Both the position numbers and the translations under genes were made by a program. DNA of 64,000 nucleotides from positions 62,001 to 126,000 of the forward strand of contig NZ_JNKW01000004.1 in assembly GCF_000702205.1 (NCBI RefSeq), written 5' to 3'. The DNA comes from Lachnospira multipara LB2003. GTDB taxonomy: Bacteria > Bacillota > Clostridia > Lachnospirales > Lachnospiraceae. Shown one piece after another: positions 12,326-62,103 of this stretch (the stretch's first letter is position 1; every line of letters starts with the position of its first letter). The notes below the pieces were generated by a model that searched no databases, was not told the DNA's origin, and saw only the letters and a list, made by a program, of their open reading frames with translations.

Positions 12326-13915
12326 TTAATACATATAGAAGTTAAGGTATACATCGCTGATTAACCAATTGCTTCCATCATACTTATATGTAATATAGTA
12401 GTAATTATCATATGTATGTGTTGCATCTTTTTCTTCCTTAGAATATGTAGATGTGTACTTACCAGAAATTGTATAGTTTACACTTACTCTCATCATTGGC
12501 ATTCCATCATCTGTGTCATAACGATAGTAGCTATCGTACATGCTTGTCTTAATTGATGATAAGCTATAAGAAGAGAATGTTCTTGATGATGGATGGAAAT
12601 CTTCAACTAAGTTCTTATAGTGATTATTTAAGCTTGAACTTGCATCCTTTACAAAAACACTACCCTTTAATTCAGAGATATCCTTCTTATTATATGCTGC
12701 ACCTGCAATTGTCTTAAGATCATTCTCAGCCTTAGACATTACTTCCTTCTCAACTGAATCCTTGAAATCAAGGTCAGAGTAAGAAATTGATGTAGTGCAT
12801 TCATCATATGTAACATTAAATGTTTCTTCGTAATCTTCAACTATATCACTTGTAACCTTAACTGTGTTCTTACCAGCATATAAGTAAGGAATTACATATG
12901 TATCACTTGTTGAGCCTGACTTTGAGTTATCAGCCTTAATGTATTTAGCATCTGCTTCAACACCATTAACTGAAAGTTTCATTCCCTTTGGTACTGTAAT
13001 AGCTGCATCCTTATATACGATACCTTCTGAAGATACCTTATACTTCTTAAAGAAAAGAAGATATTTATCATTAGTCTGAGATAATAATAAATTTACGCTA
13101 TTAGCAGACTGTGTTGGAGTTGAATATGTAACAACAACTGCTTCATTACCCTTTAAGTTACTAGCTGTGCTGTATCCCTTAGCAACTGTAATAGCAGTAA
13201 CCTTTTCACCTGTTTCATCAGCATGAGCATTAGCAAGAGCATCCTTTGTTAAGAATTCACTCTTAGGTAAATCAAGGTAATCATATGCACTATCCCAATC
13301 ACACTGTTCAAGAGCTGTAATATACTTCTTAGCTGTCTTCTTATAATCAACACCAGCCTTACCTACGTTAATAAATATAGCAAGAACTGCAACTACAGCA
13401 ATAACTGCACCAACAATAGCTATAATCTTCTTATTAACTGCTGGCTTAAATCCATTATTTGCACCATTATTGAAATTCTGTGTATTCTGATTAAATCCAT
13501 TATTTGCAAAGCCCTGTGTCTGTGCGTTCTGATCAAATCCATTATTTGCAAAGCCCTGTGCCTGTGCGTTCTGATCAAATCCATTATTTGCAAAGCCCTG
13601 TGTCTGTGCGTTCTGATCGAATCCGTTATTTGCAAAGCCCTGTGCCTGTGCGTTCTGATCGAATCCGTTATTTGCAAAGCCCTGTGCCTGTGCATTCTGA
13701 TCAAATCCATTATTTACAAAGTCCTGTGTCTGTACAGGTGTTTCTTCTGCAACAGTATTTTCTACTGTTTCATTTGTTTCATTTGTTTGTGTTGAGTTTT
13801 CATTAACTTCCTGATTAAGTGTTTCATTAAAATCATTAAGATCTAATTTGCTTCCGCAGTTTCCGCAGAAAACAGCACCATCTTCGTTATTTGTTCCACA
13901 ATTTGGACAAAACAT
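12326..13915 (-). CDS. Zinc-ribbon TcaA-like membrane protein with tandem repeats
   Basis: 529 residues from the ATG at 13915, seven bases after GGGAGG; a TTG two codons upstream is less likely. N-terminal zinc ribbon CPNCG (residues 3-7) and CGNCG (17-21), an acidic Gln/Asn-rich linker with about six 14-residue repeats of the type GFANNGFDQNAQAQ (about residues 62-145), one membrane span KKIIAIVGAVIAVVAVLAIFI (about 163-183), then extracellular domains homologous to the neighbouring 355-residue protein. This is the TcaA layout. The zinc ribbon would be cytoplasmic and the C-terminal domains outside. The repeats are probably a flexible cytoplasmic spacer and may vary in copy number between strains. 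Function unknown; a cell-envelope role is inferred from TcaA. Confidence 0.75.
   Translation of the reverse strand: MFCPNCGTNNEDGAVFCGNCGSKLDLNDFNETLNQEVNENSTQTNETNETVENTVAEETPVQTQDFVNNGFDQNAQAQGFANNGFDQNAQAQGFANNGFDQNAQTQGFANNGFDQNAQAQGFANNGFDQNAQTQGFANNGFNQNTQNFNNGANNGFKPAVNKKIIAIVGAVIAVVAVLAIFINVGKAGVDYKKTAKKYITALEQCDWDSAYDYLDLPKSEFLTKDALANAHADETGEKVTAITVAKGYSTASNLKGNEAVVVTYSTPTQSANSVNLLLSQTNDKYLLFFKKYKVSSEGIVYKDAAITVPKGMKLSVNGVEADAKYIKADNSKSGSTSDTYVIPYLYAGKNTVKVTSDIVEDYEETFNVTYDECTTSISYSDLDFKDSVEKEVMSKAENDLKTIAGAAYNKKDISELKGSVFVKDASSSLNNHYKNLVEDFHPSSRTFSSYSLSSIKTSMYDSYYRYDTDDGMPMMRVSVNYTISGKYTSTYSKEEKDATHTYDNYYYITYKYDGSNWLISDVYLNFYMY
13486..13731. repeat. 42-bp in-frame minisatellite, about six copies
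   Basis: The phrase GCCCTGTG (or TCCTGTG in the last) recurs at 13511, 13553, 13595, 13637, 13679 and about 13721, a strict 42-bp period. It encodes GFANNGFDQNAQ(A/T)Q. Because 42 is divisible by three, all other frames are also open here and yield false ORFs on both strands. Confidence 0.95.
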
Positions 13916-14096
13916 AAACAAACCTCCCGATATTTTTATTTTTTATTGCAAATTCATTGCTTTAACTAAATTCAAGTCCTATACATCCTGTCATAAGAAT
14001 TCGATTGAACAATCTAACCCTCAAAAAGCAACAAATTCTTTATAAAATCTTAAGAAATGATAACATGAGAACGTTATCAAATCAAGATAGTTTTTG

Positions 14097-15920
14097 TTAA
14101 TTTTTATTAATTTCTTCATTTAATTCATTTAAATATACCCATCTGTCCATTTTTTCCATAAGCAGATTTTCTTTTTCTTCTTTTTCCTTAGTTAATTCTC
14201 CTAGCTTAACAAAATCAGTAGCGCATTTAATTATAAGTTCATCTATCTCTTTAATGCGCTCCTCTAGTTTTTCGATTTCCTCATCAATTGTCTCAAATTC
14301 CTTCTTCTCTGAATAGCTGAACTTTCTACTATGAGATTTGTTAGCCTTGTACTCATTAGCAGCCTCCACATTACGAGTATTAGAAAAAGTCGTCTGTATC
14401 GTACCATTAATTCTTGCGCCGCTCTCATCAAGGACACCAGCCATAATAGCCTTGTCTCTATAATCTGAATATCCGCCCTCATACTGAACAAGTCTAGCAT
14501 TCTCAAAGGCAAAAATTCTATCAACAACCCTATCAAGGAAATATCTATCATGACTTACCGCAATTACAATGCCCGCAAAACCATCAAGGTACTCTTCCAA
14601 AATTTCTAATGTCTCTATATCTAAATCGTTAGTAGGCTCATCAAGAATTAAAACATTAGGAGCACTCATAAGAACCGACAATAAGTAGAGTCTTCTTTTT
14701 TCGCCACCAGATAGCTTTCTTATAGGAGTCCATTGTTGCTTTGGACCAAATAAAAATTTTTCGCACATCTGAGAAGCTGTAGCCTTACCCTCAGCAGTTG
14801 TTACATATTCCCCAATGCTTCTTACAAATTCAAGAACCGTCATATTCTCATCAAGGGGCTCATTTTCTTGCATAAAATAACCTATTCTAACAGTTTCACC
14901 AATTTCAACGCTGCCCTCATCAGGCTCAACTTCGCCTGTAATAATCTTCATTAAAGTCGATTTACCACAGCCATTACTTCCAATGATTCCGATTCTATCA
15001 TCTCTTAGAAAAATATATTCAAAATTTTCAAAAAGCTTCTTATCACCATAAGACTTTCCTATATTATGTAGTTCAATTGTCTTATTACCAAGACGTGTAC
15101 CAACCGAACTCATAATCAAATCTGACTTCATAAACTTTGCTCTAGCCTGTCTAGACGCTTCCTTCATATCTTCATATCTATCAATACGCGCCTGTTGCTT
15201 AGTTGATCTAGCAAGAGCACCACGCTTAATCCATTCAAGCTCACGTCTTAAAGTATTTTGTCTCTTTTTTTCAGTAGCCCTTTCCATCTCTTCTCTTTGA
15301 GTCTTAAGTTCAAGGAAGCCCGAGTAATTGCTGTCATATTCATAAAGATTAGCATAATCTAGCTCCACAATCTTATTAGTAACATTATCAAGAAAATATC
15401 TGTCATGAGTTACAACAATAATTTCGCCCTTAAAATTTTTAATATAGCCTTCCAACCAAACAACCATCTCATTATCTAAGTGGTTAGTAGGCTCATCAAG
15501 AATTAGCACCTCTGAAGGTTCAAGAATAGCCTTGCAAAGCGCCACTCTTTTTTTAAGGCCACCTGATAAATTAGAAATTAAGTTGTCATACTCATTAATA
15601 CCTAACTTATTAAGGATTTCTTTAGCCTCTGCTTCCGTAGCTCTATTCTTGCCCCTCATACAATAAGAAAGAACAGTTTCATTTTGAACAAAGGATGGCA
15701 TCTGTTCCAAATAAGTTATTTCCACATCATTGCCCTTAATAACCTTTCCAGAGTCAGGAAGCTCAATACCAGCAATAATTTTTAAAAAAGTAGACTTACC
15801 AGTACCATTAACACCAATAACACCTATTTTATCACCCTTATTAACGCCAAGGGAAACATTCCTAAAAAGGTCTTTTTCTCCGTAAGTCTTAGTTATATTC
15901 TCAACGTTTAATATATTCAT
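14097..15920 (-). CDS. ABC-F family ATPase, Uup-like
   Basis: 607 residues with two ABC domains and no membrane segments. First Walker A GVNGTGKST (about 36-44), signature LSGGLKKR and Walker B ILDEPTNHLD; second Walker A GSNGCGKST, signature LSGGEKRR and ILDEPTNDLD. The linker between them is the ABC-F interdomain region rich in Arg/Lys, and the C-terminal 80 residues form a charged coiled coil (EEIEKLEERIKEID) like that of Uup. ABC-F proteins act on the ribosome to relieve stalling; some give antibiotic resistance, but Uup-type members are mostly housekeeping. Divergently transcribed from the methyltransferase gene. Confidence 0.9.
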   Translation of the reverse strand: MNILNVENITKTYGEKDLFRNVSLGVNKGDKIGVIGVNGTGKSTFLKIIAGIELPDSGKVIKGNDVEITYLEQMPSFVQNETVLSYCMRGKNRATEAEAKEILNKLGINEYDNLISNLSGGLKKRVALCKAILEPSEVLILDEPTNHLDNEMVVWLEGYIKNFKGEIIVVTHDRYFLDNVTNKIVELDYANLYEYDSNYSGFLELKTQREEMERATEKKRQNTLRRELEWIKRGALARSTKQQARIDRYEDMKEASRQARAKFMKSDLIMSSVGTRLGNKTIELHNIGKSYGDKKLFENFEYIFLRDDRIGIIGSNGCGKSTLMKIITGEVEPDEGSVEIGETVRIGYFMQENEPLDENMTVLEFVRSIGEYVTTAEGKATASQMCEKFLFGPKQQWTPIRKLSGGEKRRLYLLSVLMSAPNVLILDEPTNDLDIETLEILEEYLDGFAGIVIAVSHDRYFLDRVVDRIFAFENARLVQYEGGYSDYRDKAIMAGVLDESGARINGTIQTTFSNTRNVEAANEYKANKSHSRKFSYSEKKEFETIDEEIEKLEERIKEIDELIIKCATDFVKLGELTKEKEEKENLLMEKMDRWVYLNELNEEINKN

Positions 15921-15956
15921 AAACTACCTCATTCTAAACTTCATATAGCACAAAAT

Positions 15957-15986
15957 ATGATAGACTAAATGAAACTTTCCTGTCAA
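15957..15986 (-). promoter_or_regulatory. Sigma-A promoter of the ABC-F gene
   Basis: TTGACA (15981-15986), 18 bases, TATCAT (15957-15962) on the minus strand, about 37 bases before the ATG. Confidence 0.65.
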
Positions 15987-16003
15987 ATAGATTAAAGTTT
16001 AAT

Positions 16004-16032
16004 TTGCCTTAAGACTTACAATCATATATAAT
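16004..16032 (+). promoter_or_regulatory. Sigma-A promoter of the methyltransferase gene
   Basis: TTGCCT (16004-16009), 17 bases, perfect TATAAT (16027-16032), leaving a 5' leader of about 70 bases. Confidence 0.65.
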
Positions 16033-16108
16033 CTTTAGTGCTAAATTAAAAGATACATTATAAACTTATGATTTAACATAAAATATTTATAATAGAAAGA
16101 AGGATAGC

Positions 16109-17014
16109 ATGTTTATAGCCAACAATTGGAAAGAATATGATGTTATTGATACATCAAAGGGTGAAAAACTCGAAAGTTGGGGCGGATACTTACTAGTTAG
16201 ACCAGACCCACAGGTAATTTGGGACACTCCAAAGAAAGAATATGGATGGAAGCACATGAATGGTCATTACCACAGAAGTTCTAAAGGTGGTGGAGAATGG
16301 GAATTCTTTGATTTACCACAACAGTGGAGCATTAATTATGAATTGCCAATCAATAAGACCTTAACATTTAACTTAAAGCCATTCTCATTCAAGCACACAG
16401 GCCTATTCCCAGAACAGGCAGCTAACTGGGACTGGTTCTCACAGTTAATATACAATAAGAAAAAAGAAAACCCAGACAAGGAAATAAAGGTTTTAAATCT
16501 TTTTGCATATACTGGCGGAGCAACCCTAGCAGCAGCTGCTGCAGGAGCAAAAGTAACACATGTAGATGCATCAAAGGGAATGGTAAACTGGGCAAAGGAG
16601 AATGCAGCATCATCTGGACTTTCAGATGCGCCAATTAGATGGCTAGTAGATGACTGCGTAAAATTTGTAGAAAGAGAAATTCGCCGCGGCAATAAATATG
16701 ATGCCATAATAATGGACCCACCTTCATATGGAAGAGGACCAAAGGGCGAAATCTGGAAGATAGAAGAATCAATACATAACCTTGTAAAGATATGTATGCA
16801 GATTTTAAATGATAAACCATTATTCTTCTTAATTAACTCATACACAACAGGTTTACAGCCAGCAGTATTAACATATTTATTAAGAACAGAATTAAAAGAC
16901 GTGTTAGACAAGAATCCAAAGGCATTTGTAGATTCACAAGAAGTAGGATTACCAGTAAGCAGTAACGGCTTAGTTCTACCATGTGGAGCAAGTGGCAGAT
17001 TCCAGAACGCATAA
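16109..17014 (+). CDS. Class I SAM-dependent rRNA methyltransferase, RlmI/RlmK-like
   Basis: 301 residues. The C-terminal two thirds is a Rossmann methyltransferase of the COG1092 type: SAM-binding VLNLFAYTGGATLAAAAAGA (about 130-149), acidic VDASKGMV, and the catalytic-type DPPSYGRGPKGE (about 199-210). The N-terminal part (about 1-110) lacks a recognisable PUA domain, so it is the shorter form of the family rather than a full RlmI. Such enzymes methylate cytosine or guanine in 23S rRNA; the exact base cannot be told from the sequence. One of the few plus-strand genes in the window, with its own promoter and terminator. Confidence 0.85.
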   Translation: MFIANNWKEYDVIDTSKGEKLESWGGYLLVRPDPQVIWDTPKKEYGWKHMNGHYHRSSKGGGEWEFFDLPQQWSINYELPINKTLTFNLKPFSFKHTGLFPEQAANWDWFSQLIYNKKKENPDKEIKVLNLFAYTGGATLAAAAAGAKVTHVDASKGMVNWAKENAASSGLSDAPIRWLVDDCVKFVEREIRRGNKYDAIIMDPPSYGRGPKGEIWKIEESIHNLVKICMQILNDKPLFFLINSYTTGLQPAVLTYLLRTELKDVLDKNPKAFVDSQEVGLPVSSNGLVLPCGASGRFQNA

Positions 17015-17033
17015 ACAAAATAAAAGGAAAAAG

Positions 17034-17078
17034 ACCACAGATATTAAGATAGAAATCCTAATAATCTGTGGTTTTTTT
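17034..17078 (+). terminator. Terminator between convergent genes
   Basis: ACCACAGAT (17034-17042) pairs with ATCTGTGGT (17064-17072), followed by TTTTTTT. It ends at the stop codon of the convergent Gx-transporter gene. Confidence 0.85.
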
Positions 17079-17574
17079 ATAATATTAGCTTTGGAATTTT
17101 CTTCTCAGCAAAAAACACAGCAAGCCCAGTAAATAAGCCAGTAATAATACCACTAATAATAAGAAATGGTATATAGGCAAAAATCCCGCTCATCTTTAAC
17201 ACAAAAAAGGCAGCAAGAATCTGTCCAATATTGTGGGCAATAGCGCCAAACACACTAGTCACAAAAAGGAACTCGCCCCTAAGAATAAAATTAATCAATC
17301 CCATAACAAGAAGGCACAATACCCCACCTGCAATAGAATAGGTAAATGAAACGATTTGACCTGCAAAAATACTAGCAAGAACAACCCTCATAAACAATAC
17401 TAAAGCAGCATCCCTGATACCATGTCTTTTTATTACAAAAAGAGTAACAATATTAGCAAGACCAAGCTTAACCCCTGGAATAGGAACAAGGGGTGGAATC
17501 GCCGATTCAATCATAAAAATCGTAAGCGCAATAGTTGTATAAACTGCTAAAAGCGTAATTTTTCTTGTAGACAT
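17077..17574 (-). CDS. Gx transporter family protein (Hpre_diP_synt_I type)
   Basis: 165 residues from the ATG at 17574, after GGGGAG; a GTG two codons earlier is the alternative. About five hydrophobic segments; conserved GxKLGLANIVTLFVI (about residues 35-49) and the Gly-rich stretches AGGVLCLLVMG and GAIAHNIGQILAAFF identify the family once misnamed heptaprenyl diphosphate synthase component I. It resembles an ECF S component in size and topology. To my knowledge EetB of the Listeria flavin electron-transfer locus belongs here. It lies 11 bases after the NusG-II gene, a pairing that recurs in flavin and Rnf-type loci. Confidence 0.8.
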   Translation of the reverse strand: MSTRKITLLAVYTTIALTIFMIESAIPPLVPIPGVKLGLANIVTLFVIKRHGIRDAALVLFMRVVLASIFAGQIVSFTYSIAGGVLCLLVMGLINFILRGEFLFVTSVFGAIAHNIGQILAAFFVLKMSGIFAYIPFLIISGIITGLFTGLAVFFAEKKIPKLIL

Positions 17575-17585
17575 AAACACTCCCC

Positions 17586-17984
17586 TTATTTGGCCACACT
17601 ATCATATGCACTATTTCCATCATCCAAAGAAGTCTTAACTTCAATAACAATCTTATTAGGAAGGCAGGTAATAGGCATAAGGCCATTCTTAATAAAACCT
17701 GTATTCATACAGATGTGATCAGGACAACTAGCATCAACAACACCAATACTACCATCCTTAGTCACTCGAATTAAATTATAGCCCCCATCCACTTCTATTT
17801 TAAATTCATAATCTTCTTTAACATTAGTTAAATCTACAACCTTAATAACTTCATTATTGTGGTAAATATATGCGTATGAACCCTTTTTAGTTTTAGTATT
17901 CATAATAAAAATACTACTAACAGCCGCGATGCCAATAACTACGGCCACAACAATCAAAATAATAGCCTTTTTCTTAATAGACAT
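17586..17984 (-). CDS. NusG domain II-containing membrane-anchored protein
   Basis: 132 residues: one N-terminal membrane anchor (AIILIVVAVVIGIAAVSSIFI, about 7-27), then an extracellular NusG-II domain with the signature VVDASCPDHICMNTG (two cysteines four residues apart, about 84-98) and a third cysteine in PITCLPNKIVIEV. This is not a transcription factor despite the domain name. The same domain is found in EetA-like proteins of flavin-based extracellular electron transfer. Located between ApbE and the Gx transporter, 25 bases after apbE. Confidence 0.85.
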   Translation of the reverse strand: MSIKKKAIILIVVAVVIGIAAVSSIFIMNTKTKKGSYAYIYHNNEVIKVVDLTNVKEDYEFKIEVDGGYNLIRVTKDGSIGVVDASCPDHICMNTGFIKNGLMPITCLPNKIVIEVKTSLDDGNSAYDSVAK

Positions 17985-18009
17985 AATAATCCTCTTAAAT
18001 AAAATCTAA

Positions 18010-19053
18010 CTACTCTGCTCTTACAAAATCATACTGTCCAATGCCATCACTTGCAGCAACATCGCCATTTTCATAAATAAGCACACATTCCACACCATCA
18101 ATTCCATTAATTAGGCTAAGTGCATCATCAGCTCCAAGGCAAAAACATGCAGTGGATAATGCATCACATTGAATAGATGAACTACCAATAATGCTGACAC
18201 TTGCCAAACCCTTTTTAGCAGGGAAACCCGTCTTAGCATCAAGAATATGATGATATCTAACTCCATCTTTTTCAAAATAACGCTCGTAATTACCAGAAGT
18301 AACCACACAAAGATCAGACACGCTAACGCCACCATAGACATTGCTATTATCAAAAGGATCAGTTATCCCCACTTTCCATTTTGAACCATCAGTTTTTCCA
18401 CCAATAGTCATAATATTTCCACCAAAATCAAGGATACCCGTAACCTTAGGATTCTTACTAAGAATAAGGCTTTTAATATCATCAGCAGCATAACCCTTAG
18501 CAATAGCACCAAGATCTATCTTAACCTTTCTAGAACTTACCCTTAATTCATTATTATCCTCATCAAGGCTTAAATAAGAACAACCCGTTCCAACAAGAGC
18601 CTCACTAATAGCTTCACTAGTTGGGAGATTTTCATGATCAGTACCAATTCCCCAAAGATCAATTAGGTTGCCAATAGTAATATCAAGAGCACCATTAGAA
18701 GCCTCATTTACATCAAGCCCATATTTAATAACCTTTTCAAGTTCATCAGAAATCGTAAAAGATTCCTCACCTCTAGCAATAGCCTGATTAATGGCATAAA
18801 GCTCACTAGATTCCAACTGAGCGCTAAAAATTTTCTCCAAATCATCAATTCTAGCATAGGAATCTCTAATTATACCTGTAAGCTCTTCCTTGTTATCACC
18901 ATAAAGACTAATATTCATAATTGTATCAAAATGAAGCTCCGATAAACTAACCTTCTCATTAGCATGGCTAGAATTACCACTAGAGCAGCCAACTAAATTA
19001 ACAACAAGAATCAAGCAAATTGATAAAAAAAGACATGATTTCTTCTTAAACAT
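18010..19053 (-). CDS. apbE: FAD:protein FMN transferase, lipoprotein
   Basis: 347 residues. ApbE cleaves FAD and attaches FMN covalently to a Ser/Thr of target proteins outside the membrane. Lipobox LVGC (residues 20-23) gives a lipid-anchored extracellular enzyme. Family motifs: FDTIMNISLYG near the mature N-terminus, KIDLGAIAKGYAADDI (about 176-191), GGNIMTIGGK, and HHILDAKTGFPA (about 267-278, metal and substrate binding). Its likely substrate is the SGAT motif of the FMN-binding protein encoded just upstream. A terminator lies between the two, so apbE may have its own weak promoter or depend on read-through. Confidence 0.93.
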   Translation of the reverse strand: MFKKKSCLFLSICLILVVNLVGCSSGNSSHANEKVSLSELHFDTIMNISLYGDNKEELTGIIRDSYARIDDLEKIFSAQLESSELYAINQAIARGEESFTISDELEKVIKYGLDVNEASNGALDITIGNLIDLWGIGTDHENLPTSEAISEALVGTGCSYLSLDEDNNELRVSSRKVKIDLGAIAKGYAADDIKSLILSKNPKVTGILDFGGNIMTIGGKTDGSKWKVGITDPFDNSNVYGGVSVSDLCVVTSGNYERYFEKDGVRYHHILDAKTGFPAKKGLASVSIIGSSSIQCDALSTACFCLGADDALSLINGIDGVECVLIYENGDVAASDGIGQYDFVRAE

Positions 19054-19119
19054 TTAAACACATTCCTTTCTAAATAAGCCAACAAGCATAATATAGCACT
19101 ATTTTCCACTAAATAAAAC

Positions 19120-19149
19120 AATGCCAGTAAGTTTAACCCCACTGGCATT
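19120..19149 (-). terminator. Internal terminator in the flavin module
   Basis: AATGCCAGT / ACTGGCATT 9-bp perfect stem, 12-base loop, followed by GTTTTATTT on the minus strand. It sits between the FMN-binding gene and apbE and would lower apbE, NusG-II and Gx expression relative to the two upstream genes. Confidence 0.7.
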
Positions 19150-19191
19150 AAATTTTATTATAAAAAATGTAGTAATGTCAACTATAGCAAA

Positions 19192-20574
19192 CTAGCCTTT
19201 AGCCTTGGCAACAGCCGCATTATAAGCACTCTTAATAGCTTTTGAAGAAAAAGTTGCCCCACTTACAGCATTCATACCAGAAGTAGATAATCCACCAGCA
19301 GCTTTTTCAGCATATTCATAATCCAAATCAGAAGCATCCGAAATATCCGCATATACCTTAGAAACCTTATCATTACTAATAACAACATAAACAGTAATGT
19401 TATAGAAATAATCATCAACTGTAGCAGATGCGCTATAAGTACCATCGCTCTTATAAGTACGTGAAATAGCCGGTTCATTAGCCTCTACATTTGAATTGCC
19501 TTGACTATTCTGATTGTTAGATGATGCTAAATCACCATTAGAATCATTACTAGATTTAGCAGTTTCAGTACCCTTCGAATTTTTAGCCTCTATAGAGTTA
19601 ACATTATCACTAGAAACTTCACTATTAGCTTCTGTGTTAGCCTCCTCACTTACAGCTTCACTACTAGCTTCCTCACTAACGACCTCATTATTATCATCTG
19701 CAGCAATTTCACCTAAATCAGAATTTATCATAGCTTCCAATTCCATTTGCTGTCTTTTTCTTTCAATCTTCTTCTGATTAGCAACATTGTAATTAGCAGC
19801 ATTTACGTAAGTAATACTTACAACAACAATAATGGCAATAATTGATACAATGCTAGTTCCAATTTTACTAAATCTGTCAAGAATTGCAATATCAACCCTT
19901 TTATACTTAGAAAGAAGATATTTTCTTACACGCATAATAACATAAGTGAAGAATAAGCAACTATATGCAACAATTATGATAACAGCATCAAAGTCAGCAT
20001 TTTTACACTTGTTAGCCTGCATAGTAACGCCGTGGATGTACATTAAAAAATAAAACAAATAAGCAGTTCTTTGTAAATTTTTCCAAGTCTTAGCCTTCAT
20101 CTTTCTTCTTACAACCTTAACAGATGTAATACCAAGATAGATAGTCTGGATAAGAAGAATAGTACCGCAAATAATACTAAATAGGAGACTGCCATTAATT
20201 GTATTAGAATTTTTAACAGCCATTTCAATGTACTGAGGTCCAAAAATTACAATGTGAGATAGCATTAAAATGCATGATATTATCGAAAGTTCGCCCCTTA
20301 TTTTCATAAGTTTCTTTATTAACTTTCCTTTTGCATTTAATGCACCAGTAAACATAACAATGTAAAAACCAGCAATACCCACGTAACCTGTAGTAAACAT
20401 AGCCAATATATCATTTCTTAAAAAGCCGGATAAAGCCGCATTTTTATATATAATAAAAGCTATAAGGTTTAATACAAAAGCACCAATATAGAAGTATGCA
20501 GGAGCCTTCTTTATAGCATTATCAAAAAGAAGGACTATTCCACACATAACAATTAAACTTATAATAAAAGCCAT
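19192..20574 (-). CDS. Ferric-reductase-like membrane protein with C-terminal FMN-binding domain
   Basis: 460 residues. About eight membrane segments in residues 1-270, similar to ferric reductase/MsrQ-type cytochrome cores; histidines in LSHIVIFG (about residue 106) and YIHGVTMQ (about residue 180) could bind one heme. A low-complexity acidic and Ser/Asn-rich linker (about 290-375) leads to an extracellular FMN-binding domain ending NAVSGATFSSKAI, in which Thr441 of SGAT is the expected ApbE flavinylation site. This design would move electrons across the membrane from heme to flavin. It is 14 bases downstream of the Tp47-like gene in one operon. The acceptor (ferric iron or other) is inferred only. 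Confidence 0.8.
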   Translation of the reverse strand: MAFIISLIVMCGIVLLFDNAIKKAPAYFYIGAFVLNLIAFIIYKNAALSGFLRNDILAMFTTGYVGIAGFYIVMFTGALNAKGKLIKKLMKIRGELSIISCILMLSHIVIFGPQYIEMAVKNSNTINGSLLFSIICGTILLIQTIYLGITSVKVVRRKMKAKTWKNLQRTAYLFYFLMYIHGVTMQANKCKNADFDAVIIIVAYSCLFFTYVIMRVRKYLLSKYKRVDIAILDRFSKIGTSIVSIIAIIVVVSITYVNAANYNVANQKKIERKRQQMELEAMINSDLGEIAADDNNEVVSEEASSEAVSEEANTEANSEVSSDNVNSIEAKNSKGTETAKSSNDSNGDLASSNNQNSQGNSNVEANEPAISRTYKSDGTYSASATVDDYFYNITVYVVISNDKVSKVYADISDASDLDYEYAEKAAGGLSTSGMNAVSGATFSSKAIKSAYNAAVAKAKG

Positions 20575-20588
20575 TTATATCCTCCGCC

Positions 20589-22196
20589 TTAAGCTCTCTT
20601 TCTTCTAATAACAACAGTAGTTAAGACACTGATAGAAGCAAGAGCTAATACAATATAAATAGCATAATTTAAGCCATCAAAAGTATTAGTCTTAGAATCA
20701 CTAACATTAGAATTGCCAGCAGCAGCTACTACAGCAGTTTCAGCAGCAACTTCACCATTAACACTATCATCTGATTTATCAATATTTTCACCAGCAGCTT
20801 CATTGCTTGTAGCACCCTTAACTACAACACCACTAATAATGCCATATCCTGGTACATCAAGTGTAACTTCATAACTACCATCAGATCCAAATAAAACCTT
20901 ACTTCCTCTACCAGAAGTCTTAGCATCAAGATTAACACTAGCATCCTCATTATAGAATACAGAAGCACCATTAGAAATAGGAGTACCATTAATAGTTAAG
21001 CTAGCATTTTTAATTGCAGCTAATACATCATTAACATCAAACTTGTTATCCTTAATAGAAAGTCTATTATTTTCAATAGTAATATCACCATCAGCCACAT
21101 CAGCTAAAACAATAGCATCTACATTAATATCTTCATACTTGTCATCAGTTAAGCGAATAGTATATTTGCCAGGCTTAACAGAATCAGCAAAATCCACACC
21201 AAAGCCTTGCTCAGTCTTTACAACACTATAATCAGTGCCATTTTCTAAGCCATTAATTGAAGCAACATTATAGTTAGCATCAGCAGGCACATTTAAACTA
21301 ACATTTGATACATTACCGTTTGCAGTAGAAGCATTGCTTGCAGTAGCACCGCTATTCTCATCAAGTAAATTCTTAACCTTTAACTCGCCAACATTATAAG
21401 TAGACTTATTAAATACTGCATTCCCACTTTCATCACTAGTCTTATAAATATAAGTTACGCTAGTAATAGTCTTACCTGTAAGACCTGTAAGGCTCTTTGT
21501 ATAAGGTGAATTACCATGAGGCTCCTTAAAATCAGGGTCAACTACCCAAGAAAATTCATAAGCCTGAAACCAAAGGTTTGCAGAATGATATAAAGGATAA
21601 GATTTACCCTCAGTAGTTGTTACATAAGCACCCTCAATTTCCTTACCAGAAGCAAGAGCCGAACCATCGTTAGGATAAATATAAAGAATATAATTACCCC
21701 AAGCAGAATCAGTAGAAATAGATGAAGTATTATTAGCAGCAACAACATTGTCATTTAAACCAACGTAAGCTCCAATAGAACCATCTTCATTAATATCCTT
21801 GTAAACTGAAAGTTCATCACAAGGAGTAAATCCTCTATCTAATAAAACAGCAACAGCGCTGTTGTTACCAGCAAGCGCGCTGTCATAGACAGACTTAGAA
21901 ATCCTAACAGGTACATTACTAATACCGTAAATAGACGTTAATCCAGTAGACTCATCTGTAGAGTACGCAGAGTTAACAAAAGACTTGTATTTAGCAGTTG
22001 TTGCAGAAGTAATAGTATCATAATCACCACTAGCAACAGCCGCACCCTCTCCCAACTCACTTGTAAAATACTCACCATATGTAAGGTAACTTAATCTACC
22101 ATATACATATTCATCCGCAGCTAATAAATTAGTTGTAGAAAAACTCAAAGCAACTAGCACTAAAGAAAGTACTAAAGCAATCTTTTTCTTTATCAT
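20589..22196 (-). CDS. Surface-anchored Tp47-like protein
   Basis: 535 residues from the ATG at 22196, eight bases after GGGAGG. Signal peptide (IALVLSLVLVALSFSTTNLLAA, about 5-26), a long extracellular part, an Ala/Asn/Ser-rich stretch, and a C-terminal membrane span with RRKRA tail. Mature start YVYGRLSYLTYGEYFTSELG resembles the YGYATLSYADYWAGELG start of Treponema Tp47, and KPGKYTIRLTDDKYEDINVD matches the GPGYYRLTLIADGYRD region of the same protein; these are from memory. Tp47 was reported as a penicillin-binding carboxypeptidase, but no such activity should be assumed here. First gene of the iron-box operon, so a role in metal or heme capture is a reasonable guess. Confidence 0.65.
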   Translation of the reverse strand: MIKKKIALVLSLVLVALSFSTTNLLAADEYVYGRLSYLTYGEYFTSELGEGAAVASGDYDTITSATTAKYKSFVNSAYSTDESTGLTSIYGISNVPVRISKSVYDSALAGNNSAVAVLLDRGFTPCDELSVYKDINEDGSIGAYVGLNDNVVAANNTSSISTDSAWGNYILYIYPNDGSALASGKEIEGAYVTTTEGKSYPLYHSANLWFQAYEFSWVVDPDFKEPHGNSPYTKSLTGLTGKTITSVTYIYKTSDESGNAVFNKSTYNVGELKVKNLLDENSGATASNASTANGNVSNVSLNVPADANYNVASINGLENGTDYSVVKTEQGFGVDFADSVKPGKYTIRLTDDKYEDINVDAIVLADVADGDITIENNRLSIKDNKFDVNDVLAAIKNASLTINGTPISNGASVFYNEDASVNLDAKTSGRGSKVLFGSDGSYEVTLDVPGYGIISGVVVKGATSNEAAGENIDKSDDSVNGEVAAETAVVAAAGNSNVSDSKTNTFDGLNYAIYIVLALASISVLTTVVIRRKRA

Positions 22197-22232
22197 TTTA
22201 TGTTCCTCCCTAAAAAAATATAACACCGTGCG

Positions 22233-22251
22233 TTAGCTTAGCCTAACTTAA
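22233..22251 (-). promoter_or_regulatory. DtxR/IdeR-type iron box
   Basis: The 19-mer TTAGCTTAGCCTAACTTAA matches the palindromic DtxR/IdeR consensus TTAGGTTAGCCTAACCTAA at 17 of 19 positions. It lies just downstream of the -10 element of the flavin-module promoter, so a bound repressor would block initiation. Confidence 0.7.
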
Positions 22252-22264
22252 GTTCGTGTCTGAT

Positions 22265-22292
22265 ATTATCATAATTTTTCTAAAAAGGTCAA
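22265..22292 (-). promoter_or_regulatory. Sigma-A promoter of the iron-box flavin operon
   Basis: TTGACC (22287-22292), 16 bases, GATAAT (22265-22270) on the minus strand. Transcription would start near 22258, directly in front of the iron box. Confidence 0.65.
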
Positions 22293-22306
22293 TTGTTTTA
22301 ATGATA

Positions 22307-22330
22307 AAGATTTTCAATAAGAAAAATCTT
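22307..22330 (-). terminator. Terminator after the P1 peptidase gene
   Basis: AAGATTTT / AAAATCTT 8-bp stem, 8-base loop, then TATCATTAA. Weak but directly after the stop codon of the peptidase gene and before the next promoter. Confidence 0.5.
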
Positions 22331-22331
22331 A

Positions 22332-23318
22332 TTAATTAAAATCCTCATAGGCCTTAAGACCATACGCTGGCTTAGCCTGTTTAACACCGTCAATAATAGC
22401 CTTTTCCATAACGTAAGCCGCAAGCATACCAACTGTATTAACATCGGAATTAACATCACCTACAGATAAGGCATAAATACTATCACCATCCATCATACTA
22501 TGAACAGGATTAATAGCTCTGCCATAACCATTATGAGCCATACCAGCAATCTTACAAAGCATAGACTTATCAAATTTAGCATTAGTTATAATAGCACCAA
22601 TAGTAGTATTAGCTCTTGAGTTCTCATTAGGAATGTCAGCTATAGTATTAGCTTTACTCCTAAGTTCCTGCCATTTAAGAATCTGATTAAAGCTACTAGA
22701 AATACCATCTCCCGCTTCATTAATAAGACCAGCAATAGCCTTGCCATCTTCAAAAATATCACCAATAGCATTAACAACCACAATAGCACCAACTTTTAAA
22801 TCACCAACTTCAACAGCGAAAGTTCCCACGCCAGATTTCATAGCACGTTCCATTCCACAGCACTTGCCAACACTAGCACCAGTACCAGCACCAACATTAC
22901 CTCTAACAACAGAGTCATAGCTTGCATTTTCACAAGCCTTTCTACCTGCAGCTTTATCAGGACGAACATCCCCCCTGCCAACGCCAAGATCAAAAATGCA
23001 ACTTTCAGGGACAAGAGGAACTCTAATACCACCAACATCTAAACCAATACCATTTTCACTAAGATATTCAAGCACACCACCAGCAGCATCCAATCCAAAG
23101 GCACTGCCGCCAGAAAGTAAAACCCCATTAATTTCCCCAGCAGCCATAAGAGGATTAAGGAGTTGTGATTCTCTTGATGCCGGGCCACCGCCCCTTATAT
23201 CCACACCAGCAGGACACATTTTATCGCAGATAATAACAGTACAGCCAGTAGCAGCCTCAAAATCACTATAATGACCTATTTTAAAGCCCTTTATACTCAT
23301 TAAATCTATTTCTTTCAT
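22332..23318 (-). CDS. P1 family (S58) peptidase, DmpA-like
   Basis: 328 residues. N-terminal-nucleophile-type aminopeptidase/D-esterase family that self-cleaves into two chains. Seen: VDIRGGGPASRE (about 38-49), the glycine-rich LLSGGSAFGLDAAGG (about 66-80), GNVGAGTGASVGK, and SRANTTIGAIITNAKF (about 238-253), where the first Thr or the following residue should be the new N-terminus and nucleophile. No signal peptide, so cytoplasmic. An in-frame ATG at 23300 is an alternative start. Monocistronic between two terminators. The substrate is unknown. Confidence 0.85.
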   Translation of the reverse strand: MKEIDLMSIKGFKIGHYSDFEAATGCTVIICDKMCPAGVDIRGGGPASRESQLLNPLMAAGEINGVLLSGGSAFGLDAAGGVLEYLSENGIGLDVGGIRVPLVPESCIFDLGVGRGDVRPDKAAGRKACENASYDSVVRGNVGAGTGASVGKCCGMERAMKSGVGTFAVEVGDLKVGAIVVVNAIGDIFEDGKAIAGLINEAGDGISSSFNQILKWQELRSKANTIADIPNENSRANTTIGAIITNAKFDKSMLCKIAGMAHNGYGRAINPVHSMMDGDSIYALSVGDVNSDVNTVGMLAAYVMEKAIIDGVKQAKPAYGLKAYEDFN

Positions 23319-23378
23319 ATAAATCTAAATCTCCCATTTAAAAATTTTAACTCTAACAAAATCCATTAAAATAAAAAA

Positions 23379-23425
23379 TAGGCATATGAAAACTAGCAAA
23401 CACTAATATTTATCTCATATGCCTA
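23379..23425 (-). terminator. Terminator after the ECF S-component gene
   Basis: TAGGCATATGA pairs with TCATATGCCTA (11 bp), loop 25 bases, followed on the minus strand by TTTTTTATTTT. Confidence 0.85.
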
Positions 23426-23448
23426 GATTATATTAATAGATACGTAAA

Positions 23449-24168
23449 TTACATAGTGCCATCAGCCACGTCTACATTAGCACTAGCACTAACATCATTC
23501 TTGTTAACATTCATTTTACTTTCCTGTGACTTATAAGGAATAGCGCTTGATTCCTTATTAACAGTTCTTACCAAAGCCTGACAAATTGCTGAACCAATAA
23601 TAGTACAAGCAATAGCCTCAACGATACCATTAACAGCAACAAGACCAAGCATAAATACTAATAAAGTAAAGCCACCATTACCATTATAACCACCTGTTAA
23701 AGAATCATTGCTTAACCATGTATCCTTAAATATTAACCAGTTAGCAAGAATATAAAGCACAGTGTTAATAATAGGAGTCAAGAAAGCACAGATAGTAATA
23801 GAAAGTGATTTATTCAAGTTAATCTTTCTAAAACCACGATAGATTAAAGCCGGAATTAAACCAACTAACACTCTGTTACCAACAAGTAAATAAAATGTGC
23901 CAATAGGATTAGCATTTAGCATCTGTTGTCCAAGTACATTGGAAAAACTCTGAGAAAAAGAAGTTAAACCAAAAACCAAACCTAAAAATGCGCCAGCCTT
24001 AGGTCCAAGAATAATACCACCAACAGCAACAGGAATTACAATTAAGGTAATCTGAATTCCCCAAGGTGTCATTAAATAGCCAAGAGGTGTAAAAGCCATA
24101 ATTAAAATAATGGCAGTTAAAACACCTAATTCTACCATCTTACGTACACTAAATTTGTTCTTCTTCAT
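23449..24168 (-). CDS. ECF transporter S component
   Basis: 239 residues from the ATG at 24168, which follows AAGGAGG; the open frame extends 43 codons upstream but that part is encoded by the double-hairpin repeat and is not protein-like. Five to six membrane segments with ITLIVIPVAVGGIILGPKAGAFLGLVFGL (about 39-67), the AxxGxxxG-like contact helix typical of S components that dock onto the shared EcfT module. The vitamin or metal bound cannot be told. No energising subunits are nearby, so it probably shares a group II ECF module encoded elsewhere. Confidence 0.8.
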   Translation of the reverse strand: MKKNKFSVRKMVELGVLTAIILIMAFTPLGYLMTPWGIQITLIVIPVAVGGIILGPKAGAFLGLVFGLTSFSQSFSNVLGQQMLNANPIGTFYLLVGNRVLVGLIPALIYRGFRKINLNKSLSITICAFLTPIINTVLYILANWLIFKDTWLSNDSLTGGYNGNGGFTLLVFMLGLVAVNGIVEAIACTIIGSAICQALVRTVNKESSAIPYKSQESKMNVNKNDVSASANVDVADGTM

Positions 24169-24216
24169 ATTGTCCTCCTTACTGTCGCTCTCGCCTTTCG
24201 CGGATGCAACGTAACC

Positions 24217-24286
24217 TGTTGCAATTACTTCGTAATTGCAATGTAGCCTCATGCTAGCGCGAAGCGCATTTAAATGCATGAGGTTC
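24217..24286 (-). repeat. Dispersed double-hairpin repeat, copy 1
   Basis: On the minus strand it starts GAACCTCATGC. Hairpin one pairs CCTCATGC (24276-24283) with GCATGAGG (24247-24254); a constant CTACAT linker leads to hairpin two, TTGCAATTAC / GTAATTGCAA (24219-24241, loop GAA). It closely matches the tandem pair at 58884-59030 but differs at both sides of the second stem in a compensating way. It lies in the leader of the ECF gene. Confidence 0.75.
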
Positions 24287-24455
24287 AAGTAATTCATAGT
24301 GATTATACCTTAAATACAAAGCTGCACTTAGCTTATGCGCTTTTAAAGTATAAATCATCGATTTCGAATTCAGCTATAGTATAAGATACTTTTGTAAAAA
24401 AGACAATAAATAATGACATAAATTTGTATACAATATGCAAAATTTTCCAAAAAAA

Positions 24456-61290: not shown

Positions 61291-62103
61291 TTAACCAAGT
61301 ATTGATAATACACCCTGGTTAGCCTGATTTGCCTGTGAAAGCATTGATAAACCAGCCTGAGAAAGGATGTTATTCTTAGAGAATTCAACCATCTCAGAAG
61401 CCATATCTGTATCACGAATACGTGATTCAGCTGCCTGTGTATTCTCACTTGTTGTATTTAAGTTATTAATTGTGTGTTCAAGTCTGTTCTGAACAGCACC
61501 AAGTGTAGATCTTTGTGTAGACACCTTATCAATAGCTGACTGTACCTTAGTAATAGCACTACCTGCTTTAGTATATGTTGATAATGAAAGTGCATTTACT
61601 GATAATGAAGCTGCATCCATCTTGCCAATACTAAGCTGAATCTTCTGGTTAGCTAAAGAACCAACCTGTAAATTCTTACCTGTGAATGAACCATCAAGTA
61701 AGTTCATAGTATTGAACTGTGTTGTTGTACTAATTCTATCGATTTCTGTCTTTAACTGAGTAACTTCAGCTGCAAGAGCTGTTCTATCAGTTGCTGTATT
61801 AGTATCATTTGCTGCCTGTGTAGCTAGTTCATTCATTCTCTGTAGGATAGAGTGTGTTTCATTTAAAGCACCTTCAGCTACCTGAATAAGTGAGATACCA
61901 TCCTGTGCATTTGATGAAGCCTTATTAAGACCTCTAATCTGAGCACGCATCTTCTCAGAAATTGAAAGACCAGCTGCGTCATCACCAGCTCTGTTAATCT
62001 TATAACCTGATGATAACTTTTCTGTTGACTTTGACAAAGCGCCCTGTACAGAGCCCATCTGTCTGTTTGTGTTCATTGCTGTTACGTTGTGTTGTACTAC
62101 CAT
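61291..62103 (-). CDS. Flagellin, minimal form, copy 4
   Basis: 270 residues from the ATG at 62103 ([18 protein letters not shown]); an 11-codon upstream extension in the open frame covers the ribosome site and is excluded. Near twin of copy 2, including the C-terminus. Unlike copies 1-3 it has no SigD-type promoter; a sigma-A promoter precedes it. Confidence 0.95.
   Translation of the reverse strand: MVVQHNVTAMNTNRQMGSVQGALSKSTEKLSSGYKINRAGDDAAGLSISEKMRAQIRGLNKASSNAQDGISLIQVAEGALNETHSILQRMNELATQAANDTNTATDRTALAAEVTQLKTEIDRISTTTQFNTMNLLDGSFTGKNLQVGSLANQKIQLSIGKMDAASLSVNALSLSTYTKAGSAITKVQSAIDKVSTQRSTLGAVQNRLEHTINNLNTTSENTQAAESRIRDTDMASEMVEFSKNNILSQAGLSMLSQANQANQGVLSILG

Follow-up and report, generated by a model that had tools for sequence, protein, structure and literature searches.

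Clusters in which an MsrQ-like membrane core stands with the flavin transferase gene apbE and a protein carrying the domain FMN_bind (FMN, flavin mononucleotide) have already been described (PMC8238504, section 10), a form with the core and the flavin domain fused was modelled in Fig. 5B of PMC11334425, and eetB was reported beside some of the MsrQ-like systems (PMC9973259). Also known from PMC8238504 and PMC11334425 are NapH-like flavinylation clusters, as well as surface proteins that lie beside the multi-flavinylated ones. In the stretch of 64,000 nucleotides analysed here, which is called the window below (Lachnospira multipara LB2003, contig NZ_JNKW01000004.1, forward strand, positions 62,001 to 126,000), five genes on the minus strand at 17077-22196 form a locus around such a fused membrane protein, and what appears to be new in it is the link with the family of Tp47, the 47-kDa lipoprotein of Treponema pallidum. 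We consider it likely that this locus is an MsrQ-like flavin-based extracytosolic electron-transfer module with a dedicated Tp47-family surface partner, and the distant relatedness of that partner to Tp47 suggests a new role for the Tp47 protein family.

In gene order, the five genes encode a Tp47-like protein, a membrane protein in which an MsrQ/ferric-reductase-like core is followed by a C-terminal FMN_bind domain (hereafter MsrQ-FMN), ApbE, a protein with NusG domain II (NusG_II) and a PF07456 protein, with gaps of 14, 138, 25 and 5 bases counted from the Tp47-like gene. The five genes were located where the preliminary description had put them, and in a Pfam scan of nine genes at 14097-24297 all cluster genes except the Tp47-like one passed their cut-offs. 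MsrQ-FMN (19192-20574, minus strand, 460 aa) matches PF01794 with 28.7 bits (cut-off 28) and FMN_bind with 27.9 bits (cut-off 22), which bears out the proposed fusion of a heme-type core to a flavin domain; the SGAT ending at Thr441 was likewise found, as part of the full heptad NAVSGAT (19252-19272, minus strand), a predicted FMN attachment site by the ApbE motif D-x-x-[S/T]-G-A-[S/T] as defined in PMC12052999. Along the core two histidines are conserved: all 15 aligned relatives have His107, and 14 of them have His181, which agrees with the one bis-histidine haem site expected for the MsrQ kind (PMC11334425, section 10). Among the relatives PF01794 was matched in L027 (30.4 bits) and L028 (31.8 bits), and no match to it appeared in the Pfam scans of L023, L024, L025, L069 and L072, though all of them align along the core. 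As for the other three genes, ApbE (18010-19053, minus strand, 347 aa; 265.7 bits, cut-off 25.6) begins with a lipoprotein-type N-terminus, LVGC, and the NusG_II protein (17586-17984, minus strand, 132 aa; PF07009, 105.3 bits, cut-off 29.6) with a membrane segment, both by inspection. The PF07456 membrane protein (17077-17580, minus strand, 167 aa from a GTG, with an in-frame ATG two codons inside the listed frame; 133.5 bits, cut-off 30) is of the Gx transporter family, an EetB-type S subunit of the energy-coupling factor (ECF) kind; PF07456 is the EetB family, whose Listeria member is an ECF-S subunit exporting flavin adenine dinucleotide (FAD), as stated in PMC9973259. The genome (2.58 Mb, 99.95% complete, with the window on contig C3) contains one ApbE match, which is the cluster's own, and one further match to FMN_bind, which is RnfG and belongs to an Rnf operon on contig C1 whose subunits were named by inspection.

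The remaining gene, at 20589-22196 on the minus strand, encodes 535 aa from the ATG at 22196, which is preceded by GGGAGGA, and an alternative longer frame with a GTG start reaches 22226. Its product has, by inspection, a signal peptide and a C-terminal membrane anchor with an RRKRA tail, while its N-terminal part is like domain A of Tp47 and its C-terminal part is immunoglobulin-like and similar to the haemoglobin-interacting domain (HID) of Shr. Searched alone, this protein gave no match to the Pfam families of Tp47 (PF14889 and PF14888) at expectation values (E) up to 1 and no match in the PDB at E up to 10. A profile of its family, by comparison, reached 1o75, the Tp47 structure, at E 6.6e-5 with seven rows and at E 1.7e-5 with 41 rows, the next matches of the latter being the Shr HID and a similar entry (E 4e-4 to 5e-4; 6dkq at 4.4e-4), which cover the C-terminal part. 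Moreover, the relative L022 scores 26.3 bits with PF14889 against a gathering score of 25, PF14889 is matched at E up to 0.05 by five of the 41 family members, and hhalign between the window family and genuine Tp47 gave 94.7% with E 5.6e-8 over 123 columns, where three unrelated small alignments taken as controls gave at most 0.1%. The hhalign alignment is confined to domain A, and domain C (PF14888) was not found in the window protein by these searches. With E values up to 0.05, the HID domain was seen in 26 of these 41 sequences, the window protein itself being without a Pfam match. As judged from sequence, the window protein thus has domain A in common with Tp47, yet it is outside Pfam's definition of the family, because it has neither a PF14889 match over the gathering score nor domain C. 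The Tp47 resemblance put forward in the preliminary description therefore holds up in profile searches, through the family profile and for domain A, and does not emerge from the window sequence by itself. An AlphaFold model of the ectodomain from four sequences (predicted local distance difference test score, pLDDT, 63; predicted template modelling score 0.42) had 1o75_A as its best Foldseek match at E 6.1e-6, tied with 6e57_A, with TM-scores below 0.2, and may lend weak support. A defence-library search with the Tp47-like protein returned nothing.

The linkage of this family to flavinylation genes can be seen at first within the genus. Among 22 sampled genomes, of which the 16 without the pair were left out of the search with the genuine-Tp47 profile, full-length MsrQ-FMN occurs in six, and in all six a Tp47-family gene is adjacent or one gene away. 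In three of these six genomes the neighbour is of the window type; in the other three it is a genuine Tp47, which adjoins MsrQ-FMN in L137 and L138 and stands one gene away, with apbE between, in L139. These are clear members of the family, as shown by their E values for PF14889 (2.5e-75, 4.1e-74 and 1.5e-70 in L137, L138 and L139, respectively) and PF14888 (5.8e-82, 1.7e-81 and 2.0e-73), and single-sequence searches matched 1o75 from L137 (E 6.3e-17, residues 34-349) and L139 (E 1.6e-15). Since genuine Tp47 is found at MsrQ-FMN in three sister genomes, the window partner and genuine Tp47 fill the same slot.

The same linkage extends through the Lachnospiraceae. The window-type domain was detected in 27 of 299 family genomes, and among the matches listed FMN_bind lies within 10 kb of the best Tp47-like match in at least 25 of the 27, the expected number being 0.52 under uniform placement and with part of the FMN_bind matches listed. 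This count includes four genomes (G000, G020, G072 and G088) whose proteins are in the search profile, and without them it becomes at least 21 of 23, again among the matches listed; L130 and L131 come from the genomes of L028 and L027, respectively, each of which was counted once. In G880 and G010, one and the same polypeptide carries the Tp47-like domain and the FMN_bind nearest to it. The two exceptions, among the matches listed, are G811, on a contig of 8.5 kb, and G875. Together with the six of six in the genus, these numbers speak for co-conservation of the neighbours, on which the preliminary description had depended. Genuine Tp47 over the PF14889 cut-off was found in 12 of 304 family genomes, with one more below the cut-off, and in ten of the 12 it lies in flavinylation clusters; one of these ten, G014, shows only NapH before the contig ends, and the occurrences outside clusters are G914:C2 and a fragment on G845:C6. 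That fragment (G845:C6:6142-6417, L156) contains an internal stop and lies apart from flavinylation genes; the genome also carries a window-type copy, and this one does stand in a flavin cluster. In a phylum sample, PF14889 was found in 0 of 299 genomes, with no positive control responding. Fusions join the parts directly: with the profiles of this analysis, six chains carry FMN_bind, window-type and genuine Tp47 domains in one polypeptide, and for L116 the fusion was confirmed by Pfam (FMN_bind 31.2, PF14889 237.1 and PF14888 250.8 bits). In G880, ApbE, NusG_II and PF07456 accompany an FMN_bind fused to the Tp47-like protein. Separately, L115:8031-14435 encodes a single protein of 2134 aa with four FMN_bind domains and a Tp47-like domain, no other flavinylation gene being called in its stretch.

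The five genes also recur as a group. Two Lachnospira relatives, in records of L. pectinoschiza and L. multipara, have the same five genes at the same place with an identity of 61-64% in the Tp47-like protein, and the five-gene order is found again in another genus (L068). In another family, L072:6157-12418 and L073:6486-12806 have the core of MsrQ-FMN, ApbE, NusG_II and PF07456 and, where the Tp47-like protein would stand, a surface protein that has two FMN_bind domains; in L072 the SLH and FMN_bind domains of this surface protein were confirmed by Pfam.

The Tp47-like protein itself contains a heptad, DTITSAT (21999-22019, minus strand), that aligns with D-x-V-[S/T]-R-A-T of genuine Tp47 and is like the ApbE motif D-x-x-S-G-A-T with the Gly replaced. 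Over the 41 rows of window-type domains the pattern is D-x-x-[S/T]-[S/T]-x-T, where Asp and Thr are each present in 40 of 41 rows and the Gly position is Ser or Thr in 41 of 41, and the genuine Tp47 rows show D-x-V-[S/T]-R-A-T in 15 of 15 with Arg at the Gly position (DAVSRAT in 1o75). The FMN_bind rows of the fetched loci, 122 distinct ones, comprise 102 with Gly, 19 with another residue (19 of 121 readable heptads) and one without the heptad, counts that leave out seven rows from repeated stretches and the L120 row, whose heptad is that of the adjoining Tp47-like domain; the heptads without Gly include DTVSSAT, DTVSRAT and DAVSRAT. In these 19 rows (L114, L116, L118, L119, L120, L022, L125 and others) Gly is substituted by Arg, Ser, Thr, His or Lys; a frequent place for this is the final domain of a multi-domain carrier. 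A change of this Gly to Ala was accompanied by lower flavinylation in the work reported in PMC12052999. Homology between the Tp47 N-terminus and the FMN_bind domain was considered and rejected: hhalign gave 9.4% for the region and 4.4% for the full profile, the aligned part being 15 columns about the heptad, and therefore the likeness is one of motif only.

The gene content and the domains described above, read by analogy with systems already characterised, point to covalently bound flavin as the probable route by which the proteins of the cluster bring electrons out from the membrane to the cell surface. The EetB-type PF07456 protein would deliver FAD to the outside, and the lipid-anchored ApbE would attach FMN at Thr441, in the FMN_bind part of MsrQ-FMN; the same ApbE presumably also flavinylates RnfG, as it is the only ApbE match in the genome. 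The core, with haem predicted at its two histidines, would then pass electrons outward from a donor in the membrane or the cytosol to the FMN, and the Tp47-like protein, fixed to the outer face by its membrane anchor, may either receive the electrons or bring an acceptor to them. As for the acceptor, extracellular Fe(III) is the leading candidate, if a weakly supported one.

Several observations weigh against this reading. In the first place, the membrane modules of the 25 linked family genomes are MsrQ-FMN in eight and NapH-like in 15, and therefore the Tp47-family partner goes with more than one kind of membrane module; since it is present in NapH-type flavinylation clusters, the Tp47 family is wider than the MsrQ-type locus. 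The NapH-like module of those 15 genomes includes a one-domain and a multi-domain FMN_bind protein, and in G010 this module stands beside a second Tp47-like match on another contig; the other two of the 25 are G880, described above, and G102, which has one-domain and multi-domain FMN_bind proteins without a NapH call. Secondly, apbE is missing from the fetched stretch in six of the 14 MsrQ-type Tp47 loci (L023, L024, L025, L069, L107 and L124), so that the conserved unit is the pair of Tp47-like protein and MsrQ-FMN more than the five genes. Thirdly, in the class sample of 391 genomes the window-type profile matches seven, two of them at the C-terminal end only, and the membrane core or the FMN_bind part matches 147; most flavinylation loci there are therefore without a Tp47 partner. 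The link is thus weaker beyond the family. Several class genomes, for example G178, G412, G402 and G241, have the membrane core with no Tp47-like match, and in G350 and G505 a long distance separates the core from the Tp47-like genes. There, as well as in Mogibacterium timidum (L029) and two class relatives (L070 and L071), the sole flavin feature in the fetched stretch is an N-terminal FMN_bind-like part of the Tp47-like chain itself, whose Pfam scores, where obtained, stay under the cut-off (15.5 and 17.1 against 22). Within the locus, no donor gene was seen and the 460-aa membrane protein has no match to the NAD (nicotinamide adenine dinucleotide)-binding domain PF00175 at E up to 1. The FMN heptad starts with Asn in the window and with Ser in L027 and L028, where the other aligned relatives having the domain have Asp; the loss of this Asp had only a minor effect in one target according to PMC12052999. 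An AlphaFold model of MsrQ-FMN from three sequences was poor (pLDDT 42), hence it was set aside for the haem geometry.

Among the alternatives, the one that survives best is a special case of the electron-transfer reading, in which the module reduces ferric iron specifically for its uptake, a ferric complex or a haem protein being the ligand of the Tp47-family protein. At L069:4133-11833, FeoB lies beside the pair of Tp47-like protein and MsrQ-FMN, and the pair in turn precedes a DUF6110 protein and a heavy-metal P-type ATPase; with a one-sequence profile, FeoB-type frames were also found in L129, next to the NapH gene, and in L121, and a ferritin lies 1.7 kb upstream in L029. The DUF6110 protein and the ATPase of L069 presumably resemble ferrosome genes, and the gene grouping of this locus, taken by itself, is possibly one of iron storage or transport tied to the pair. 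The iron-uptake explanation can further call on the C-terminal domain, through its matches to the Shr HID domains given above, though HID-type domains are common surface folds, which counts against it, and on a weak match of the membrane core to MamZ, though the scores of at most 38.5 are far under the MamZ cut-off of 650. Moreover, just two loci have no FMN_bind close by, among the matches listed, and L121 belongs to them, and genes of any of the four iron-type profiles occur in only four of 44 annotated stretches, none of them adjoining the window locus. Because of this scarcity we hold iron uptake as a possible but doubtful specialization of the electron-transfer module.

Alternatively, ApbE, NusG_II and PF07456 could serve Rnf, while the pair of Tp47-like protein and MsrQ-FMN would be a separate unit sharing ApbE. 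In favour of this, ApbE is matched once in the genome, RnfG and RnfD of the Rnf operon on contig C1 show flavinylation-type motifs, eetB is most often co-located with Rnf and extracellular electron transfer systems (PMC9973259), and the pair stands without apbE in the six loci named above. Furthermore, the 138-base gap between the pair and apbE contains, at 19119-19191 on the minus strand, a promoter-like site (19181-19152) and a hairpin with a T tail (19150-19119), found by promoter and terminator scans that gave, for the region, counts no higher than in shuffles. Against this separation, the pair itself has an FMN_bind with a flavinylation motif, the five-gene order is repeated in L068, and apbE adjoins the pair in L137 and L138 and sits within it in L139, so that we regard a division of the cluster in this way as unlikely. 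Still less probable is that the Tp47-like protein acts in the cell wall or is of the penicillin-binding type, and merely shares an operon with flavin genes, as the penicillin-binding name of the Pfam families of Tp47 and the description of T. pallidum Tp47 as a penicillin-binding protein and penicillinase (PMC11057208) would have it, for in loci annotated for chosen families, a set with cell-wall gene patterns outside it, the FMN_bind linkage in at least 25 of 27 genomes, among the matches listed, involves two different membrane modules, and several single polypeptides contain FMN_bind together with Tp47 domains.

Around the five genes, the records of L. pectinoschiza and L. multipara have genes for EF-Tu, ECF-S and S58 peptidase on one side and a methyltransferase gene on the other. 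In the window, the S58 peptidase gene separates the ECF-type S component (23449-24297; PF12822, 58.1 bits) from the pair, so that this component is the second gene upstream, a position kept in L027 and L028. Elsewhere in the window, at 12326-13921, a protein of 531 aa has a tandem repeat of QGFANNGFDQNAQ and, in its N-terminal part, a CPNCG..CGNCG segment that is like a zinc ribbon.

Returning to the electron-transfer reading, a similar arrangement may exist in T. pallidum. Tp47 is TP0574, or TPANIC_0574 (PMC5956850, PMC11100446), and TP0572 is annotated as 'FMN-binding domain protein, putative membrane protein' at 622652-623734 of T. pallidum subsp. pertenue in PMC5607219, a span of 360 aa plus stop that is near the 355-404 aa of L023, L024 and L025. 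By these tag numbers the two are two locus tags apart, and therefore the same pairing in another phylum is suggested. We would tentatively propose, as something rather short of an even chance, that the Tp47 family consists of redox partners of flavinylated carriers and is not primarily penicillin-binding, with the heptad being a variant ApbE site or an FMN-docking copy, and that T. pallidum Tp47 takes part in a flavin chain with TP0572. To our knowledge, the role of Tp47 in the cell is unsettled beyond the reported penicillin binding. As Tp47 is a leading antigen of the syphilis bacterium, its repeated genomic link to flavin-based electron export gives it a testable physiological role, for which Lachnospira and its relatives offer a cultivable setting. 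More generally, a class of surface partner is added to the systems of flavinylated electron transfer, in which the last components often still have to be identified. Literature searches for Tp47 or TP0572 together with flavin or FMN, with most subscription papers and supplements outside their scope, returned no report of a link between Tp47 and flavin transfer, and the word Tp47 is absent from the main texts, supplements aside, of PMC8238504, PMC11334425 and PMC9973259.

To compare the locus with known systems, the likeness to the extracellular electron transfer locus of Listeria (EetB/FmnA/FmnB/PplA) lies in the PF07456 FAD exporter (EetB), in ApbE (FmnB) and in extracytosolic flavinylation, as described in PMC9973259, whereas the window has an MsrQ-like core and, as stated earlier, no NDH-2, PplA or demethylmenaquinone genes among the nine scanned genes, the only part of the genome where these were sought. 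With the Rnf flavoproteins RnfG and RnfD the shared feature is the modification by ApbE, and no rnf gene is among the nine; the echo of Listeria and Rnf-linked systems noticed at the outset is thus sound for PF07456 with ApbE and does not extend to the partner genes of either. The NapH-like and multi-flavinylated clusters (PMC8238504, sections 9 and 18) are alike in having surface proteins beside FMN_bind carriers and ApbE, and Tp47-type domains occur there too, but they combine an iron-sulfur NapH core with a multi-domain FMN carrier, where the window has a single MsrQ-FMN protein. Relative to Tp47 (TP0574, 1o75), the window protein has a homologous domain A and the slot that genuine Tp47 takes in sister genomes, and differs by having no detectable domain C and by a transmembrane anchor, seen by inspection, in place of a lipoprotein's. 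The suggestion that the combination may be a distinct system accordingly does not apply to its core, as MsrQ-like clusters, their fused form and eetB beside some of them had been described before, and it stands for the Tp47 partner, unreported in the literature searched. With the MsrQ-like flavinylated systems of Meheust et al. 2021 (PMC8238504) and Huang et al. 2024 (PMC11334425) the window shares the PF01794 core and its conserved haem-ligand histidines, the FMN_bind domain and a cluster that includes apbE; it is set apart from them by being without the NAD-binding domain, which is frequent there and not universal, and by having a surface partner of the Tp47 family.

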